Source of the DNA: Bacteroidota bacterium
GTDB taxonomy: Bacteria > Bacteroidota > Bacteroidia > Chitinophagales > Chitinophagaceae
Length of the DNA: 51,164 nucleotides
Assembly: GCA_030706605.1 (NCBI GenBank)
Contig: JAUZOE010000029.1
Location: forward strand, 1-51,164
Reading direction: 5' to 3'
Shown in pieces: positions 1-38,528 of this stretch. The notes under the pieces were generated by a model that was not told where the DNA came from, searched no databases, and saw only the letters and a program-made list of their open reading frames with translations. Numbering within the stretch: position 1 is the first letter of the stretch; every line of letters begins with the position of its first letter. The translations under genes were made by a program, and so were the position numbers.

Positions 1-1085
1 AAGTAATTATTATAAATGCAAAACATTGTCTTCTTTGTGTCCTTAGTCTCTTCGTGGTAAAATAATAATTCTTTGCTTCGCAAAGAACAGAAAATAAAAA
101 CCACCAAGAAATAAAGAACACTAAGTAAATAATATAAATACAAATCATTGTCCTCTTAGTGCTCTTGGTCTCTTTGTGGTAAACAAAAAATTCTTTGCTT
201 CGCAAAGAACAGAAAATAAAAACCACCAAGACACAAAGACCACCAAGTAAATAATATAAATACAAATCATTGTCTTCTTCGTGCCCTTAGTCCCTTAGTG
301 GTAAAACAAAAAGTTCTTTGCTTCGCAAAGAAGAGAAAATAAAAACCACCAAGAAATAAAGAACACTAAGTAAATAATATAAATACAAATCATTGTCTTC
401 TTCGTGCCCTTAGTCCCTTAGTGGTAAAATAATAATTCTTTGCGTAGCAAAGAATAAGAAAGAAAAAACCACCAGGGCACAAAGAGCACCAAGTAAATAA
501 TATAAATACAAATCATTGTCTTCTTCGTGCCCTTTATCCCTTAGTGGTAAAATAATAATTCTTTGCGTAGCAAAGAATAGAAGAAAATAAAAACCACCAA
601 GCCACAAAGACCACCAAGTAGTTATTATAAATACAAAGCATTGTCTTTTTCGTGCTCTTTATTTCTTAGTGGTAAAACAAAAAGTTCTTTGCGAAGCAAA
701 GAACAAGAAATAATAAACCACCAAGAGACAGAGAACACCAAGTAATTATTATAAATGCGAAGCATTTCCTCTTAGTGCTCTTGGTCTCTTTGTGGTAAAA
801 CAAAATTTCTTTGCGAAGCAAAGAACAAGAAACAATAAACCACCAAGAGAAAAAGAGCACCAAGTAATTATTATAAATGCAAAACATTGTCTTCTTTGTG
901 TCCTTAGTCTCTTCGTGGTAAAATAATAATTCTTTGCTTCGCAAAGAATAAGAAAGAAAAAACCACCAAGACACAAAGAACACTAAGTAAATAATATAAA
1001 TACAAATCATTGTCTTCTTTGTGCTCTTATTCCCTTAGTGGTAAAACAAAAATTCTTTGCGGAGCAAAGAATAGAAATTAGTAAA
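1..1085. repeat. Array of ~123-bp palindromic repeats (nine palindromes)
   Basis: Nine copies of a unit recur every 120-126 bp. Each has a left arm (for example 222-247, ACCACCAAG...CACCAAG), an AT-rich centre, a right arm that is its imperfect reverse complement (276-302, ending TTAGTGGT), and a separate perfect palindrome TTCTTTGC-NNN-GCAAAGAA. The palindromes start at 69, 191, 314, 436, 559, 685, 805, 930 and 1053. Their centres are TTC, TTC, TTC, GTA, GTA, GAA, GAA, TTC and GGA. Open frames here are translations of the repeat and are not genes. There is no CRISPR-type unique spacer. Function is unknown. Confidence 0.93.
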
Positions 1086-1101
1086 CCCAAAATATTCATT
1101 C

Positions 1102-1494
1102 ATGTATCTTAAAATATCTGAAAGAGAAGATTTCCTGGGAAAAGAAATTGTTGATGCCGCCTATAAAGTTCATAGAGAATTAGGCCCCGGCCTGTTAGAA
1201 AAAGTTTATGAATCATGCTTTTGTTATGAACTGGGACTAAAGGGAATCTCATACAAAAGGCAGGTTGATATACCAATAAACTATAAGGATGAATTATTTT
1301 TTGAAGACGGATTAAGAATGGATGTTTTAGTGGATGAATTAGTGATTTGCGAATTGAAATCAGTTGAGGAAATTAAGCGCATTTGGATGGCACAAATCAT
1401 AAGTCATCTTAAACTTACTAATCTGAGGCTTGGTTATTTAATCAATTTTAATGTACCGCTAATAAAGAATGGAATAAAAAGGGTAGTGATTTAA
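1102..1494 (+). CDS. GxxExxY family protein (PD-(D/E)XK-like)
   Basis: A 130-residue protein of the GxxExxY family, whose role is not established. The naming motif is G30-L-L-E33-K-V-Y36 inside a helix (VHRELGPGLLEKVYE). A nuclease-like pattern follows: RMD with D74, then E84-L-K86, which fits the D...ExK core of PD-(D/E)XK folds, so nucleic-acid cleavage or binding is possible but unproven. Length is normal for the family and the ATG at 1102 is the natural start. The gene lies wholly within the repeat array: palindromes flank it at 1053 and 1644, and right after its stop codon the sequence resumes as a repeat right arm (ATCATTGTCCTCTTGGTG). It therefore looks like cargo of, or a lodger in, the repeat. 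Confidence 0.88.
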   Translation: MYLKISEREDFLGKEIVDAAYKVHRELGPGLLEKVYESCFCYELGLKGISYKRQVDIPINYKDELFFEDGLRMDVLVDELVICELKSVEEIKRIWMAQIISHLKLTNLRLGYLINFNVPLIKNGIKRVVI

Positions 1495-1790
1495 TCATTG
1501 TCCTCTTGGTGTCCTTCGTGTCTCCGTGGTGAAAAAAAGAATAGAAAATAAAAACCACCAAGAAATAAAGAACACTAAGTAAATAATATAAATACAAATC
1601 ATTTCTTCTTAGTGCTCTTGGTCTCTTGGTGGTAAAACAAAATTTCTTTGCGTAGCAAAGAACAAGAAATAATAAACCACCAAGAGAAAAAGAGCACCAA
1701 GTAAATAATATAAATACAAACCATTTCTTCTTTGTGCCCTTAGTCCCTTAGTGGTAAAAACAAAATTTCTTTGCGAAGCAAAGAACAAGA
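1495..1790. repeat. Continuation of the palindromic repeat array
   Basis: Repeat units continue after the GxxExxY gene. The first resumes in the middle of a unit at about 1495 and has lost its palindrome (GGTGAAAAAAAGAATAG around 1530). Two complete palindromes follow at 1644-1662 (centre GTA) and 1767-1785 (centre GAA). The last lies inside the open frame of the downstream glycosyltransferase, so repeat and coding sequence are fused. Confidence 0.9.
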
Positions 1791-2947
1791 AAGAAAAGAA
1801 CTCTAAGTATTATCAATTCAATATTTACAAAACCCTGATCCTTTTCCTTACCTTAAAAACATTCTCTGCCACCGGTGGTATTGAAAAAGTAAGCCGCGTA
1901 GCCGGTATGGCCATCAATGAATATGCTGAAGCACACCAGGAAAAGCTTTCCGTTATTTCAATGCACGATAAAAAGCTGCCAACTACCAAACCTTATTTCC
2001 CCTCATCAGTATTCATAGGAATGGCCGCTAAGAGAATCGCATTTATTATAAGAGCATGGCGACAAGGCATCAGGAGCAGGGTAGTGGTGTTGAGTCACAT
2101 TAATTTATTACTGCCGGGGTATCTCATCAAATTTTTTTCCGGAAAAACAAAGCTGGTATTGATAGCACATGGCATCGAAGTATGGCAACCGCTTTCCCCG
2201 TTTAAGCAAAGAATGTTGAAAGCCGTAGATCTCATGTTACCCGTAAGCCATTTTACCAAAGAAAAAATGAAATTGCTTTTTCATCTACCCGAAGAAAAAT
2301 TACAGGTGCTCAACAATTGCCTTGATCCCTTTTTACCCACGCCCGCTACTGAAGAAGAAAGAATAAACTGGCGTAGCAAATACCAGCTTAAAGACGACGA
2401 CAGGGTGTTGATGACTTTATCGCGCCTGTCGGCAAAAGAAAAAAATAAGGGATACGATAAAGTGCTGGAATCCATCAGGGAGCTAAGGCCACTATTTCCC
2501 AATTTAAAATATGTGTTCGTTGGCAAATATGATGAGGAAGAAAAAAACCGTGTTGAGCAGCTTGCTGTTTCTCTCGGCATCAGCGATGCCTTAATTTTTA
2601 CCGGCTTTGTTCCTGATAGTGAACTTGCCTTTTATTACAATATGGCCGATGTATATATTATGCCCAGTGAAAAAGAAGGTTTTGGCATTACGTTTATTGA
2701 AGCCATGTATTACCATTTGCCGGTGATAGCGGGCAATCGCGATGGCACCACAGATGCATTGGCCAATGGGCAGCTGGGGACCCTGGTAGATCCCCGCAGC
2801 CAGGAAGCCATAACCGCAGCTATTCACAAAGTATTTACCAATTTAAGTGCGTTTGTGCCTGACCGTAACCTGCTGATGGAACGATTCAGCTATGAGGTTT
2901 ATAAAGACAAATGGAAATCCGTATTAGGGTTATCCAACCCAAAATAG
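1751..2947 (+). CDS. GT4 family glycosyltransferase with repeat-derived 5' end
   Basis: Retaining glycosyltransferase with a GT-B fold, transferring a sugar from a nucleotide-sugar donor at the cytoplasmic face. The N-terminal domain shows the glycine loop TGGIEKVSR. The C-terminal half has SRLSAKEKNKGYDKVLE and the donor-binding E-x7-E region (SEKEGFGITFIEAM), followed by PVIAGNRDGTTD. The start is unusual: no in-frame ATG or TTG lies before the conserved TLILFLTLKTFSATGG segment, and the only conventional candidate is the GTG at 1751. That codon and roughly the first 17 codons come from the repeat, including a whole palindrome. Either the protein carries a repeat-encoded extension or initiation is non-canonical (for example CTG near 1835). 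The gene stands alone, about 75 bp before the DUF6922 gene. Confidence 0.85.
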   Translation: MVKTKFLCEAKNKKEKNSKYYQFNIYKTLILFLTLKTFSATGGIEKVSRVAGMAINEYAEAHQEKLSVISMHDKKLPTTKPYFPSSVFIGMAAKRIAFIIRAWRQGIRSRVVVLSHINLLLPGYLIKFFSGKTKLVLIAHGIEVWQPLSPFKQRMLKAVDLMLPVSHFTKEKMKLLFHLPEEKLQVLNNCLDPFLPTPATEEERINWRSKYQLKDDDRVLMTLSRLSAKEKNKGYDKVLESIRELRPLFPNLKYVFVGKYDEEEKNRVEQLAVSLGISDALIFTGFVPDSELAFYYNMADVYIMPSEKEGFGITFIEAMYYHLPVIAGNRDGTTDALANGQLGTLVDPRSQEAITAAIHKVFTNLSAFVPDRNLLMERFSYEVYKDKWKSVLGLSNPK

Positions 2948-3023
2948 TATTATATATGAGCAGTATCACCAGCGGGAATTCTTTTTAAAACAATTGCTAA
3001 CTTTAGCATCTTAATCGTTTTAC

Positions 3024-3323
3024 ATGAATACCATTTTGTCTGAGCTTTCTCCCCATTTGTTTTGGGACATTAACCGAAATACGCTGGAACTTGAACCTGA
3101 TAAGAAATTCATTATTAAAAGAGTATTGGAGTACGGATTGTGGAAAGACTGGATATTGCTCAGAAAGACCTATGGAATTGATACCATCACAAAAACAACA
3201 CAAGGCTTTAGAGAGTTAGATCCAAGGGCACTTGCCTTTATATCTACTCTTTCCGATATACCTAAGGAAAAATTCAGATGTTATACTACAAAACAATCGA
3301 CACCCCAACACTGGAACTTATAA
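3024..3323 (+). CDS. DUF6922 domain protein (antitoxin-like partner)
   Basis: A 99-residue protein whose pattern (SPHLFWDINRNTLELE, then RVLEYGLWKDW, then the tail RCYTTKQSTPQHWNL) matches my recollection of the Bacteroidota DUF6922 family. These genes usually sit directly before, and overlap, an AbiEii/AbiGii-type nucleotidyltransferase gene. Here the overlap is preserved, since a new ATG lies at 3278, but the partner breaks off almost at once. The protein itself looks intact. A possible promoter element TAACTTTA ends about 20 bp before the ATG. The antitoxin-like role is inferred only from the usual gene order. Confidence 0.75.
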   Translation: MNTILSELSPHLFWDINRNTLELEPDKKFIIKRVLEYGLWKDWILLRKTYGIDTITKTTQGFRELDPRALAFISTLSDIPKEKFRCYTTKQSTPQHWNL

Positions 3324-3343
3324 AAGAGCTTTTAGCCAGGGAC
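3278..3343 (+). pseudogene. 5' remnant of an AbiEii-type nucleotidyltransferase gene
   Basis: The ATG at 3278 overlaps the end of the DUF6922 gene by 46 bp and opens MLYYKTIDTPTLELIKELL, which resembles the start of AbiEii/AbiGii-family nucleotidyltransferases in Bacteroidota. Intact members continue into a LVGGTALAL-type motif and an IDIDLF-type catalytic segment. Neither is present. The frame stays open to 3931, but from about 3480 it is only the antisense of the opposing fibronectin-III-like gene. I read this as a truncated gene of about 20 codons. The exact breakpoint between 3335 and 3400 is uncertain. Confidence 0.45.
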
Positions 3344-3478
3344 AAAAATAACCTTACCAAAAATATTCGTAAACAATCACTTTTCAGAACAGTCACCAGT
3401 TGTCATGCGCTGGTTGGTGGTAATGTAGGCCGTATTAAGCACCCTTGCCTGAGTTTCATTAACCGGCTCATCACTAAA

Positions 3479-4096
3479 TTACTGTACCCATTGATACGCA
3501 GGATCACTATACACTTTTTGTTGTCCGCTGCCCAGGGCGGCAATCCTCACCCAGTAGCGCTGCCCTTGCTTCAGCCGGGTAAATGTAAATTTCCGGCGGC
3601 TGCTATTGTTCACCTGCCACAAGCTGTTATCGGTAATAGGGTCGGGGGTAATTTCAAAAAGATAGCACTTGGCACCCTTCACCGCTTTTATACTGCTGGT
3701 AAGTTCGCCGCTGTTCATACCACTGGTAAGTGTTACATTCCCCGGAGCCGAAATATGAATGGATTCGGGTTTCTTATACAGGGTAAAGCCGCTGCTGACC
3801 AGCATCGTTTCATTGCCTTGTGCAATATGCATGATATACAAGGCCAGTTGAGCCAGTTGCTGCTCAAGCGTTTTACGGGTTTGTTTTTTGTTGGCAATGG
3901 CCATCCGGCTCATGTCCTGGGCTTCTATTAGAAATTGATTGTACTGATTGAGGTTCTCCCTGATTTCACTAAGTGCCGGCGAAGGATTGGGAAAATAGGC
4001 ATTACCTGCCATTGACTCCAGGATAAGTGTCACCTTTAGCCTAAAGTCTGAATCGGTTAAGGGGACAAAATTGATACTTAATTTTGCTTGTTTCAT
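3479..4096 (-). CDS. Fibronectin type III-like domain protein
   Basis: A 205-residue protein with no signal peptide or membrane segment. Residues 1-100 look helical (SEIRENLNQYNQFLIEAQDMSRMA, then QTRKTLEQQLAQLALYIMHIAQG). Residues about 108-205 look like one fibronectin type III beta-sandwich: APGNVTLTSG, a central YLFEITPDP strand, FTRLKQGQRYWVRIAALG and the final YSDPAYQWVQ. Similar small proteins are common in Bacteroidota with no assigned function, and binding or scaffolding would be a guess. It is convergent with the broken AbiEii remnant and divergent from the small gene at 4121, with only 24 bp between the two starts. Confidence 0.75.
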   Translation of the reverse strand: MKQAKLSINFVPLTDSDFRLKVTLILESMAGNAYFPNPSPALSEIRENLNQYNQFLIEAQDMSRMAIANKKQTRKTLEQQLAQLALYIMHIAQGNETMLVSSGFTLYKKPESIHISAPGNVTLTSGMNSGELTSSIKAVKGAKCYLFEITPDPITDNSLWQVNNSSRRKFTFTRLKQGQRYWVRIAALGSGQQKVYSDPAYQWVQ

Positions 4097-4120
4097 AACC
4101 CGGGGTTTTAAAATTAAAGA

Positions 4121-4480
4121 ATGAATTTATTAGATAACGTATATCAATTTTATATTATTGTATCCCGATATTATTTGATAGATGATCCACTGTATGCAGC
4201 CAATAAAGCCCGCCGCTGGGTAAATGAGGGCCATCGTTCAATTAATGAGGCGGATAGCCTGGCCAATAATGCGGGTTTCCCGGTGTATGATTCTGACAAC
4301 CAGGCCAATAATACCCAACAGGCAGCCAATGATCGTAACCACCAGGCAAAGAATAAAGATAATCATGGGAATGATGACCCATATTTGCTCAATGATGCTT
4401 ATTATTTGGCAGACAATCGGTTATTTGATAAGGCAAATGTCCACTTTAGTAAGCGGGCGGTCTATCTTATACAAGATTAA
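4121..4480 (+). CDS. Small Asn-rich heptad-repeat protein, unknown function
   Basis: A 119-residue frame that I do not recognise. A seven-residue period runs through it: a small hydrophobic residue at 27, 34, 41, 48, 55, 62, 69, 76, 83, 90 and 97 (A, V, I, A, V, A, A, A, G, L, A), followed by Asn at 28, 35, 42, 49, 63, 70, 84 and 91. The typical unit is (Q/L)-A-N-(N/D)-x-x-x. This periodicity exists only in this frame and argues that it is, or was, coding; the overlapping frame at 4224-4622 lacks it. The N-terminus is hydrophobic and aromatic (YQFYIIVSRYYLI), and there is no cysteine. An A-rich stretch precedes the ATG. It could form a helical or solenoid-like repeat. Confidence 0.55.
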   Translation: MNLLDNVYQFYIIVSRYYLIDDPLYAANKARRWVNEGHRSINEADSLANNAGFPVYDSDNQANNTQQAANDRNHQAKNKDNHGNDDPYLLNDAYYLADNRLFDKANVHFSKRAVYLIQD

Positions 4481-4597
4481 TTCACTAATTATCAGTTGGA
4501 TACAAACTAAAAGGGCTTATCCTGGCACAATTTTGGAAAACGGGAAAGCGTTCTATTCAATTTTAATTAAAGCAAACAGGGAGATTCCATTACATAT

Positions 4598-5473
4598 ATG
4601 TTTCTCGAAAAATTTTTCATAAAAGACCCTTCCGTAAAAAGACATGTAGCCAAAACACTTACATGGAGGTTAGTCGGCACCATTGATACTATTATGCTCG
4701 GCTGGATCATTACAGGAAATCCGGCAACAGGATTAACGATCGGTGGTTTTGAGATCATTACCAAGATGATCCTGTATTATTTTCACGAACGTATTTGGTT
4801 CCGGGTAAACCTGGGATTACCTAACAGGGAAAAAAGAAAGAAAAATAAAGAAGCGAATACCAAAAACATAAGTGCCCAGTCATTTAAAATTTCACGATCG
4901 CACAGGAACCTCCAAAACCATCATACTTCATTGGTAATATGGTTCACCGGTTTATCAGGCTCCGGAAAATCTACTTTGGCTAATGGTGTGGAACAAAAGC
5001 TTTTCAGCAATGGAATTAAATGTTATGCCCTTGACGGTGATAATGTTCGCCTGGGCATCAATAAGGACCTTGATTTTAGCGATACCGGGCGTAAGGAAAA
5101 TATAAGACGGGTGGCTGAAATAGCCAAGTTGATGGCCGATGCAGGATTGATTGTGATTGCCTCTTTTATCTCTCCCTTTAAGGAAGACAGGGAAATCGCC
5201 AAAAAAATTATCGGTGAAGATCATTTCATAGAGGTGTTTGTAGATTGCCCTTTGGAAGTATGTGAACAGCGCGATGTCAAGGGTCTTTATAAAAAAGCCA
5301 GGCAGGGCACGATAAAAGAATTTACCGGCATCAGCAGTCCTTATGAAGCGCCTGACCATGCCAACATTACCATTCATTCCAATAATGCCGGCCCTGGCGA
5401 AAGCATACAACAGATTATGAGTTACCTGGAAAATAAAATGCAGATCATGGAACAGGAGGGCGCCCATATATAA
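4598..5473 (+). CDS. cysC: DUF2061-adenylylsulfate kinase fusion (APS to PAPS)
   Basis: A 291-residue two-part protein. Residues 1-75 are a DUF2061 membrane domain (KRHVAKTLTWRLVGTIDT, a hydrophobic span to ITG, then the conserved YYFHERIWF). Residues about 113-285 are a complete APS kinase: P-loop GLSGSGKST at 118-126, the DGDNVR loop, GRKENIRRVAEIAKLMADAG and the substrate segment SFISPFKEDR. The kinase uses ATP to make PAPS, the sulfate donor. The fusion would tether it to the inner membrane. Its stop codon directly abuts the cysQ start, so the pair is probably cotranscribed. No ATP sulfurylase (cysD/cysN) is in the window, so APS must come from elsewhere. Full-length APS kinase motifs make activity likely. 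Confidence 0.92.
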   Translation: MFLEKFFIKDPSVKRHVAKTLTWRLVGTIDTIMLGWIITGNPATGLTIGGFEIITKMILYYFHERIWFRVNLGLPNREKRKKNKEANTKNISAQSFKISRSHRNLQNHHTSLVIWFTGLSGSGKSTLANGVEQKLFSNGIKCYALDGDNVRLGINKDLDFSDTGRKENIRRVAEIAKLMADAGLIVIASFISPFKEDREIAKKIIGEDHFIEVFVDCPLEVCEQRDVKGLYKKARQGTIKEFTGISSPYEAPDHANITIHSNNAGPGESIQQIMSYLENKMQIMEQEGAHI

Positions 5474-6253
5474 ATGACATTACCAGCAACAGCAGCACAT
5501 TATCTGGCAACGGCAATCAAAGCTGCCGGGGAAGCATCCCGGGCCATACTGTCCGTTTATGAATCAGGGAGTTTTGGAACCGAAACAAAAACAGATGAAA
5601 GCCCTCTGACCATAGCCGACACCCAATCGAATGATATTATTAAAAGCCATTTAAAAAAAACCGGTTTGCCTGTTTTAAGCGAAGAAGATAAGCTGGTTCC
5701 ATTTGCTGATAGAAAACAATGGGAATATTTCTGGATGGTGGATCCCCTGGACGGTACCAAAGAATTCATAAAACAAAATGGCGAGTTTACAGTGAATATT
5801 GCTTTAATACAAAATAACAAACCTATATTGGGTGTGATCGTGGTGCCGGTGAAAGCTACCTGTTATTTTGCATCCGGTGGTGGCGGGGCGTGGAAACAAA
5901 TTAACCGGGAGGAACCTGTATTATTGCCGGTAAAAGATAAAAAGACCAACCTGTCGGCAGGGGGATTGCGCGTGGTAGCCTCACGCAGCCACCGCGACAA
6001 TGCCACGCAAGCCTTTTTAGATCAGCTTGCTGATCCACAAATAGTGTCTATGGGTAGTTCGTTAAAGTTCATGTTGCTGGTAGAGGGAATGGCGGATATT
6101 TACCCGCGCTTTGCGCCTACTATGGAGTGGGACACCGCAGCGGCACAAGCCATTTTATCCGAAACAGGTCATTCGGTTATTTCAGAAGATACCAAAATGC
6201 CTCTGACTTATAACAAGGAAAACCTGCTGAACCCTTATTTTATTGCAGTTTAA
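5474..6253 (+). CDS. cysQ: 3'(2'),5'-bisphosphate nucleotidase CysQ
   Basis: A 259-residue inositol-monophosphatase-fold enzyme that hydrolyses 3'-phosphoadenosine 5'-phosphate (PAP), the by-product of PAPS use, to AMP; it is normally Mg2+-dependent. Visible motifs are SEED in the first metal site, DPLDGTKEFIKQNGEFTVNIAL for the metal and phosphate site, and MEWDTAAAQAIL at the C-terminus. Length is normal. The ATG immediately follows the cysC stop codon, so translation is probably coupled. Together with the APS kinase and the sulfotransferase at 9031 this supports a sulfation pathway. Palindromic repeats begin shortly after its stop codon. Confidence 0.93.
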   Translation: MTLPATAAHYLATAIKAAGEASRAILSVYESGSFGTETKTDESPLTIADTQSNDIIKSHLKKTGLPVLSEEDKLVPFADRKQWEYFWMVDPLDGTKEFIKQNGEFTVNIALIQNNKPILGVIVVPVKATCYFASGGGGAWKQINREEPVLLPVKDKKTNLSAGGLRVVASRSHRDNATQAFLDQLADPQIVSMGSSLKFMLLVEGMADIYPRFAPTMEWDTAAAQAILSETGHSVISEDTKMPLTYNKENLLNPYFIAV

Positions 6254-6269
6254 AAAAATGAGAAGCAAA

Positions 6270-6835
6270 GACAAGTTAACCACCAAGACACCAAGAGCAC
6301 CAAGGGATTATTTCTTCGAAATAATGAAATACAAATTGGTTCTCCTTTGTGCCCTTTTCCTCTTTGTGCTCTTGGTCCCTTGGTGGTAAAAAATAAGTTC
6401 TTTGCGAAGCAAAGAATAGAAAATAATAAACCACCAAGACACCAAGAACACCAAGCAATTATTATAAATGCAAACCATTTCTTCTTTGTGCTCTTGGTCC
6501 CTTAGTGGTAAAAAATAAATTCTTTGCTTCGCAAAGAAGAAAAAATAAATAAACCACCAAGGCACCAAGAGCACCAAGTAATTATTAGTAAATGCGAATC
6601 ATTGTCTCCTTTGTGCTCTTAGTCCCTTGGTGGTAAAAAATAAGTTCTTTGCGAAGCAAAGAATAGAAAATAATAAACCACCAAGACACCAAGAACACCA
6701 AGCAATTATAATAAACACAAAATATTTTTTCTTTGTGCTCTTGGTCCCTTGGTGGTAAACAAAAAATTCTTTGCAAAGCAAAGAACAAGAAACAAGAACC
6801 ACCAAGGCACAAAGAGCACCAAGAGATTATTTCTT
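6270..6835. repeat. Second block of ~123-bp palindromic repeats
   Basis: Same family as the array at 1-1790. Arms CCACCAAG...CACCAAG and CTTGGTCCCTTGGTGG alternate with palindromes at 6398 (centre GAA), 6520 (TTC), 6645 (GAA) and 6767 (AAA, the only centre that breaks the GNA rule), spaced 122-125 bp. The block fills the gap between cysQ and the ABC exporter genes and contains no credible gene. A weak promoter for wzm could lie in 6836-6885, but I see no clear match to the Bacteroidota consensus. Confidence 0.92.
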
Positions 6836-38126: not shown

Positions 38127-38528
38127 TAAAAGAAAAGGAAAAACAACCTTACCACAAAGAAAAAAAGAGCACTAAGAAAAAAAATACCTTGTATTTATTT
38201 TTCAATAAAAAAACTATTCCTCTTTGCGCTTTCGTGAATTATAGGTTTGCTATTCATTGAAGTCTTCGGTGGCAATGGCCGGACAAACGCACGGAGTGAT
38301 CGGGTTGTCCTTGAACTTTTTGGTTACTTTTTCTTTCAAGAGAAAAAGTGACAAGCAAACCATCTATACAGACAACTATTTTTTATATCGGCAAAAATTT
38401 CACTACAAAGAAAAAAAGGACACTAAGGAAAAATTCATGCATCCATTTCAGGAATCCTGCTATTCATTGAAGCCTTTGGTGGCGATGGCCGGACAAGCAA
38501 ACCATTCACATACATAAGGATCAATTGA

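Follow-up and report, generated by a model that had tools for sequence, protein, structure and literature searches.

What do fifteen copies of a 19-bp palindrome, set in tandem repeats at one end of a contig of a Chitinophagaceae bacterium, belong to, and what keeps them there? The window analysed here, a stretch of 51,164 nucleotides (assembly GCA_030706605.1, contig JAUZOE010000029.1), carries them around and downstream of a gene of the GxxExxY family, which encodes a predicted PD-(D/E)XK nuclease; we know of no established function for GxxExxY genes. The pattern of sequence around this gene and its relatives leads us to favour, with due reserve, the reading that the tandem 19-mers belong to a small element of the GxxExxY nuclease, which would recognise and cut its own flavour of flanking repeat arms and thereby drive both the arrays and the polymorphism described below.

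A pattern search tolerating up to two mismatches confirmed the fifteen copies of TTCTTTGC-NNN-GCAAAGAA that had been reported in a reading made earlier from the sequence alone (the sequence-only reading), with the same starts except that the seventh copy begins at 807, not 805. The core arms, i.e., the two halves of the palindrome, have 0 mismatches in all 15 matches, and shuffled sequences average 0.02 matches. The copies of this core palindrome, to which no strand is assigned, are grouped here by their central triplet:

GAA, five copies: 685..703, 807..825, 1767..1785, 6398..6416, 6645..6663
TTC, five copies: 69..87, 191..209, 314..332, 930..948, 6520..6538
GTA, three copies: 436..454, 559..577, 1644..1662
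GGA, one copy: 1053..1071
AAA, one copy (the sole exception): 6767..6785

All of the palindromes belong to a tandem repeat with a period of about 122 bp, which is present in two clusters. Each unit is built of two inverted arms, L (CTTNGTG...GTGGT) and R (ACCAC...CACNAAG), each of about three CACNAAG heptamers. The core lies where the L arm of a unit is linked to the R arm of the following one, and an A/T spacer occupies the other interval. The parts are as follows:

1..1077, no strand, tandem array 1a, period about 122 bp, reaching the contig start (tandem-repeat scan)
1102..1494, + strand, GxxExxY gene, 130 aa, PD-(D/E)XK nuclease family, TIGR04256 / PF13366 PDDEXK_3 (profile search)
1505..1530, - strand, inward arm on the right of the gene-bearing unit, with three heptamers of the CACNRAG type (motif scan and reading)
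1546..1797, no strand, tandem array 1b, resuming past the gene (tandem-repeat scan)
6262..6831, no strand, tandem array 2 (6356-6831 in the tandem-repeat scan; start by reading)
6362..6387, - strand, example of an L arm (CTTNGTG...GTGGT), one of 16 such in the arrays (motif scan)
6430..6455, + strand, example of an R arm (ACCACNAAG...CACNAAG), one of 15 such in the arrays (motif scan)
38151..38236, no strand, solitary degenerate gene-less copy with a left arm at 38151-38176 and a weak right arm at about 38220-38236 (motif scan, by eye)

In the middle of array 1, the GxxExxY gene stands in the interval that is otherwise filled by the A/T spacer; a left arm of this gene-bearing unit was not seen at 1072-1101. 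By reading, only partial cores are found in two more linkers, after 1530 and at 6262-6271, the latter being a half core with which array 2 opens, 8 bp past the stop codon of the CysQ gene. The presence of a nuclease-family gene within the array is in line with an earlier suggestion, namely that such hairpins may serve recognition by a nuclease or recombinase. The contig starts inside the array (1-30), which points to a probable break or collapse of the assembly there and makes the copy number a lower bound.

The GxxExxY protein exceeds the curated cut-offs of the family profiles (133.2 bits vs. 35 and 131.1 vs. 22), and its gene is the only PF13366 match of the genome. In alignments of the family, residues D74 (79/79), E84 (78/79), K86 (79/79), and Q98 (79/79) are conserved, as is E33; from one of these alignments, two loci with stops (L102 and L158) were left out. 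The fold model of the protein (pLDDT 94.5) ranks lambda exonuclease (6m9k, 3slp) at the top of the solved folds, with SSO0001 (4ic1), which we take to be a Cas4, among the next. This ranking and the conserved D...ExK...Q residues are points of likeness to lambda exonuclease and Cas4, while the fold similarity is weak (a single match reaches E <= 0.001, with TM-scores of about 0.5 and identities below 20%) and the domain is of only 130 aa, for which a sequence search of solved structures found no relative. The model and the alignment indicate that the window protein is likely an active nuclease. The family is common: of 248 genomes in a sample of the order, 168 have a GxxExxY match above its cut-off. 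In three genomes (G417, G427, and G443), the match lies inside an open frame of 883 aa and is possibly fused to a larger protein.

Arms of the kind seen in the window accompany GxxExxY genes generally. In a first sample of 80 loci from named assemblies (the best of 343, with 2 dropped from motif counts for short flanks), inward CACNAAG reaches 16/kb over the 50 bp to the left of the gene and 26/kb over the 50 bp to its right vs. about 0.2/kb at 2-5 kb, and two or more inward copies on both sides are present at 51/78 loci vs. 0/369 control windows. CACNAAG was rejected as a universal motif, since it is present in only 6/28 loci of a second sample (30 top-scoring loci, one per genome and not random, 2 of them dropped for short flanks); other flavours were therefore searched for, and the second-sample flanks indeed carry other motif flavours in the same inverted plan. 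Four or more copies of one of eight flavours occur within 250 bp at 103/110 loci vs. 10/566 shifted windows, a figure that is partly circular, as the flavours other than CACNAAG were picked after reading 30 of the 110 loci. A motif-free test, in which the left flank was aligned to the reverse complement of the right one, covered 79/80 and 28/30 GxxExxY loci of the two samples and 28/30 loci of the S23p/IVP family (PF05635). The medians are 33 (n = 79), 37 (n = 28), and 33 (28 IVP loci) vs. 17 for shifted windows; flanks taken from different loci score 27, 18, and 18, respectively, and one flavour (CACNAAG) predominates in the sample behind the first of these values. The idea that CACNAAG is common to IVP genes was also discarded (1/28 loci).

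When mapped on the protein tree, motif flavour needs 13 changes vs. 35-40 in 300 shuffles, so that flavour appears largely to follow the nuclease clade. The association of GxxExxY genes with arms holds at fixed positions and in a fixed orientation, and the record titles of the loci span several phyla. The strict arm pattern occurs in 11/148 genomes of a phylum sample. In a co-occurrence set of 80 genomes, composed of all 11 arm-positive and 69 hand-picked arm-negative ones and entirely excluding one family, GxxExxY is present in 11/11 vs. 41/69 genomes (Fisher p 0.006), a difference that is confounded by phylogeny and by the choice by hand. At 24/110 loci, tandem arrays with a period of 40-300 bp are found no farther than 1 kb from the gene, with 37 arrays in 250 kb near the gene vs. 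10 in 511 kb farther off. At locus L100, the tandem unit to the right of the gene has an internal palindrome of its own (CCCGATAGCTATCGGG) in its consensus.

Operon junctions that are shared by related genomes can contain the gene, contain a gene-less unit, or be empty (the gene names metH, sufB/C/D/S, and fadA/B are those that we presume from the translations). At a split-metH junction of six genomes of one genus, a GxxExxY gene of one flavour is found in one genome; a second genome has a GxxExxY gene with an internal stop and a different flavour, a third has a gene-less unit in a third flavour, and in a fourth, the junction is short (about 50 nt) and retains one CACAAAG. Of the remaining two, one is rearranged and one is without a match. 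The neighbours in the two gene-bearing genomes are 96-99% identical but their GxxExxY proteins only 65% over 94 residues, which suggests that this junction was reached by different elements. The sufD-sufS junction, inspected by eye in 14 genomes of another genus, contains the gene in 5 (one of them seemingly broken by an in-frame stop), is short in 2 (61 and 64 nt), and has arm remnants in 3 and other contents in 4. At one locus of this junction (L251, genome G556), a different long hairpin (CGTCAGACGCCCTCGTCGGACG) is present, as if the junction accepted several kinds of hairpin elements.

Genes of the S23p/IVP family behave similarly. At the fadB-fadA junction of a third genus (8 genomes, 7 matched, 6 readable), an IVP gene flanked by short-repeat arms is present in 4 genomes (three identified by profile and one by eye), and the junction is short in 2. 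S23p/IVP genes stand at fadB-fadA in ten loci of our set; the wording of their flanks differs, and the inverted arms are clear in some and weak in others. TAGTATT arms are common to three loci, from three genomes of one genus, at another junction. Both neighbours are shared at sufB-sufC between locus L140, where a GxxExxY gene is found, and locus L180, where the gene is an IVP one.

Do the arms act as sites for a protein or as stems of a transcript? At position 4, CACNAAG accepts any base (A 123, T 100, G 52, C 51), while the other positions are tighter, with A tolerated at position 7 and T partly at position 2; the heptamers are spaced mostly by 8 bp (119 cases) or 10 bp (36). No covariation of this free base is seen in facing arms, which agree at it in 19/78 cases from 33 loci (p 0.70 vs. 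shuffles). Compensatory pairing was likewise not found within the window units: out of 26 columns, 20.9 agree for the L and R arms flanking a core, 20.4 for arms on either side of a spacer, and 20.5 for other pairs (p 0.15 and 0.53). The view of the sequence-only reading that selection acts on a hairpin rather than on sequence is thus contradicted for the larger arms, in which neither facing-arm match nor covariation exceeds chance. Because position 4 is free and does not covary, the arms resemble candidate protein-recognition sites rather than paired stems.

The same results make it unlikely that we are dealing with an RNA-level element comparable to the intervening sequences (IVS) of 23S rRNA genes, in which the arms would pair in the transcript and be trimmed by RNase III, the nuclease would be a passenger, and selection would favour foldable inserts tolerated between genes of an operon. 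Several observations do speak for it. The window units fold well as RNA (for 13 units, the mean z is -6.7 when the core forms the tip vs. -4.3 in the other register), in agreement with the earlier claim that the unit can form a hairpin. The Coxiella 23S IVS with its small S23p open reading frame (ORF; PF05635) in the loop has terminal inverted repeats and tandem heptamers beside the ORF, and is termed selfish (PMC4990558). In our sample, S23p/IVP genes also possess inverted short-repeat arms, although of other flavours, L140 and L180 have both neighbours in common, and IVP genes lie between co-directional neighbours at 25/27 loci, many of which represent the same junction. However, GxxExxY neighbours are oriented as at baseline (58/88 vs. 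166/264), the free base of the arms does not covary, and arms of the same hairpin match no better than others.

A second possibility, which we regard as improbable, is that of the sequence-only reading itself: the GNA triloop would be selected as a stable DNA mini-hairpin that a nuclease or recombinase recognises in single-stranded DNA. The centres are as had been reported, i.e., 14/15 are GNA or TNC (GAA 5, TTC 5, GTA 3, GGA 1), with AAA as the only exception, and the flips between GAA and TTC are evident among them. The core arms are also the best-conserved part of the unit: across 15 aligned units, 16/16 core-arm columns are invariant vs. 35/118 other columns (P = 3.5e-8), and the core is under stronger constraint than the remainder of the 122-bp repeat. 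Nevertheless, selection for the triloop found no support, as the copies are tandem duplicates with few independent changes of the centre. The tree of units with the core removed, many forks of which are poorly supported, requires at least 7 centre changes, or 5 when GAA and TTC are counted as one state; since these events are so few, the GNA rule is suggestive at most. Single changes from GAA preserve GNA in 3/9 cases, and the changed types observed are GTA and GGA, which preserve it, and AAA, which breaks it. The excess of GNA has p of about 0.26 by type and of about 0.045 if the five changes, four of them keeping GNA, are taken as independent.

The genome-wide tabulation of centres that had been proposed as a check has nothing to add, as an exact search of the 71 contigs of the genome finds the 15 window copies of the 19-mer and no others. 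A sample of 195 genomes of the family (own included) contains 4 matches in 3 other genomes, with centres TGA, AGC, AAA, and TTT, none of them GNA or TNC, and by eye their contexts appear unrelated. In the tandem-unit consensuses of other GxxExxY loci, the window core was not seen by eye, and the palindrome of L100 differs from it. DNA folding energies have one value for all 64 centres under the parameters used and are hence uninformative. We conclude that the evidence for a GNA-triloop rule is weak and that the rule is not established.

It is comparably doubtful that the repeats are debris of a miniature inverted-repeat transposable element (MITE) or insertion sequence that was moved by an unrelated transposase of the host, with GxxExxY as captured cargo. 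Such an origin would agree with the terminal inverted repeats at GxxExxY loci, with the existence of gene-less copies, and with the lack of GxxExxY in the DNA examined at 28/30 arm loci; arms without a GxxExxY gene are indeed common. However, flavour largely tracks the nuclease clade, no consistent target duplication was found, and scans with Pfam and NCBIfam revealed no transposase among the eight window ORFs between 1102 and 7734. The gene is also rare on mobile replicons, and a role as phage or plasmid cargo was rejected: the window protein has matches in 8/72,556 plasmid records, 0/50,697 phage records, and at least 1 viral-contig locus. A GxxExxY protein is, however, annotated in a paper on an algal virus. 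The last alternative, a functionless array amplified by slippage, with GxxExxY associated merely through tolerance of repeats in the same intergenic places, is very improbable, as slippage explains the tandem duplication that is evident from the unit tree but would not predict an association of fixed position and orientation across several phyla.

The reading that we prefer, with the nuclease as reader of the arms and driver of the element, is in our judgement the best-supported mechanism, and its steps are inferred as follows. The 19-mers would be linkers of an array of gene-less units that belongs to a family of small GxxExxY-carrying elements, each consisting of two inward arms of a few short-motif copies that enclose the nuclease gene or, in its place, a short A/T spacer. 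Most likely, the GxxExxY nuclease recognises the arms of its own flavour and cuts there or at a structure formed by the arms. Repair or replication of the cut DNA would then insert, amplify, or lose units, giving rise to tandem arrays and polymorphic junctions, and the element would to this extent be self-mobile. The conserved core may hold the tip of the repeat in a compact hairpin and may be a point of processing or template switching, which would account for the GAA/TTC flips.

Several observations weigh against this reading. In the genome of the window, one cluster contains all but two weak copies, and no dispersed copy number is seen. Only 2 of 30 strict-arm loci, some of them overlapping, show GxxExxY within the approximately 1.5-3 kb examined, with 28 lacking it. 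Apart from the circularity in the choice of flavours mentioned above, clustering on the tree is modest in the second sample alone (29 labelled loci; 10 changes vs. 12-19 shuffled), and flavour CGCRRAG is unclustered (75/500 shuffles equally low). At 60 loci with readable ends, no clear canonical target-site duplication was found; the best direct repeat averages 2.43 vs. 1.87 shuffled (p 0.004), array linkers being among the rows. The unbiased orientation of GxxExxY neighbours belongs here as well. The seemingly empty metH junction with its one CACAAAG may be a remnant and not an untouched site, and as the GxxExxY proteins at sufD-sufS are 92% alike, part of the polymorphism could stem from vertical inheritance followed by losses.

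A comparison with known systems helps to place the element. It is like the 23S IVS in having terminal inverted repeats around one small ORF, as observed in the GxxExxY samples (the window gene has the right arm only). It is unlike the IVS in its location between protein genes, in encoding a PD-(D/E)XK nuclease, in the non-covarying free base of its arms, in its gene-less tandem arrays, and in a flavour that varies by protein clade. The window has no Rfam match at gathering thresholds, and its genome has 0 matches to PF05635. Repetitive extragenic palindromic (REP) sequences and REPINs are short palindromic intergenic repeats that are thought to be moved by an encoded RAYT, a Y1 (HUH) transposase. 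Short palindromic intergenic repeats with a protein encoded among them are common to both, but by reading, the window core lacks a GTAG/CGTC tag, its arms comprise several heptamers, and the nuclease is not of the Y1 type. The ends of Tn7- and Mu-type transposons carry several direct copies of a protein-binding motif that are inverted between the ends, and TnsA of Tn7 is a PD-(D/E)XK nuclease. Both features recall the GxxExxY loci, which differ in their very small size, in that no DDE transposase or helper genes were seen, and in the lack of a clear target duplication.

Among the matches listed from the open-licence literature, we found no description of GxxExxY/arm elements, and searches there for PDDEXK_3 and for six arm sequences found no paper; where GxxExxY is named, it is in passing. 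A GxxExxY gene between inward short repeats gives the impression of a small selfish DNA element of an undescribed type, and by analogy, the best reading is that of a nuclease-encoding element resembling the 23S rRNA intervening sequences. A broader proposition, which we put forward only tentatively, is that GxxExxY proteins are the sequence-specific nucleases of minimal selfish elements found across phyla, in which iteron-like arms would serve as a private, exchangeable code; such elements would spawn gene-less hairpin arrays and share insertion hotspots between genes of operons with S23p/IVP elements, and the 23S IVS would be one branch of a much wider set of elements.

As regards the surroundings of the arrays, the window encodes an adenylyl-sulfate kinase fused behind a DUF2061 membrane domain (4598-5473), which is followed by CysQ. 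Genes for a glycosyltransferase and an ABC-2 transporter adjoin this pair. In 20 genomes of the genus, that of the window among them, the closest relatives of CysQ have an identity of 50-51%.

If the flanking motifs are targets of the nuclease, a very common gene of unknown function would gain a testable role. If this is true, many natural cases would also become available for comparison with the spread of 23S intervening sequences, and numerous inverted repeats of Bacteroidota that now seem stray could be assigned to an owner.

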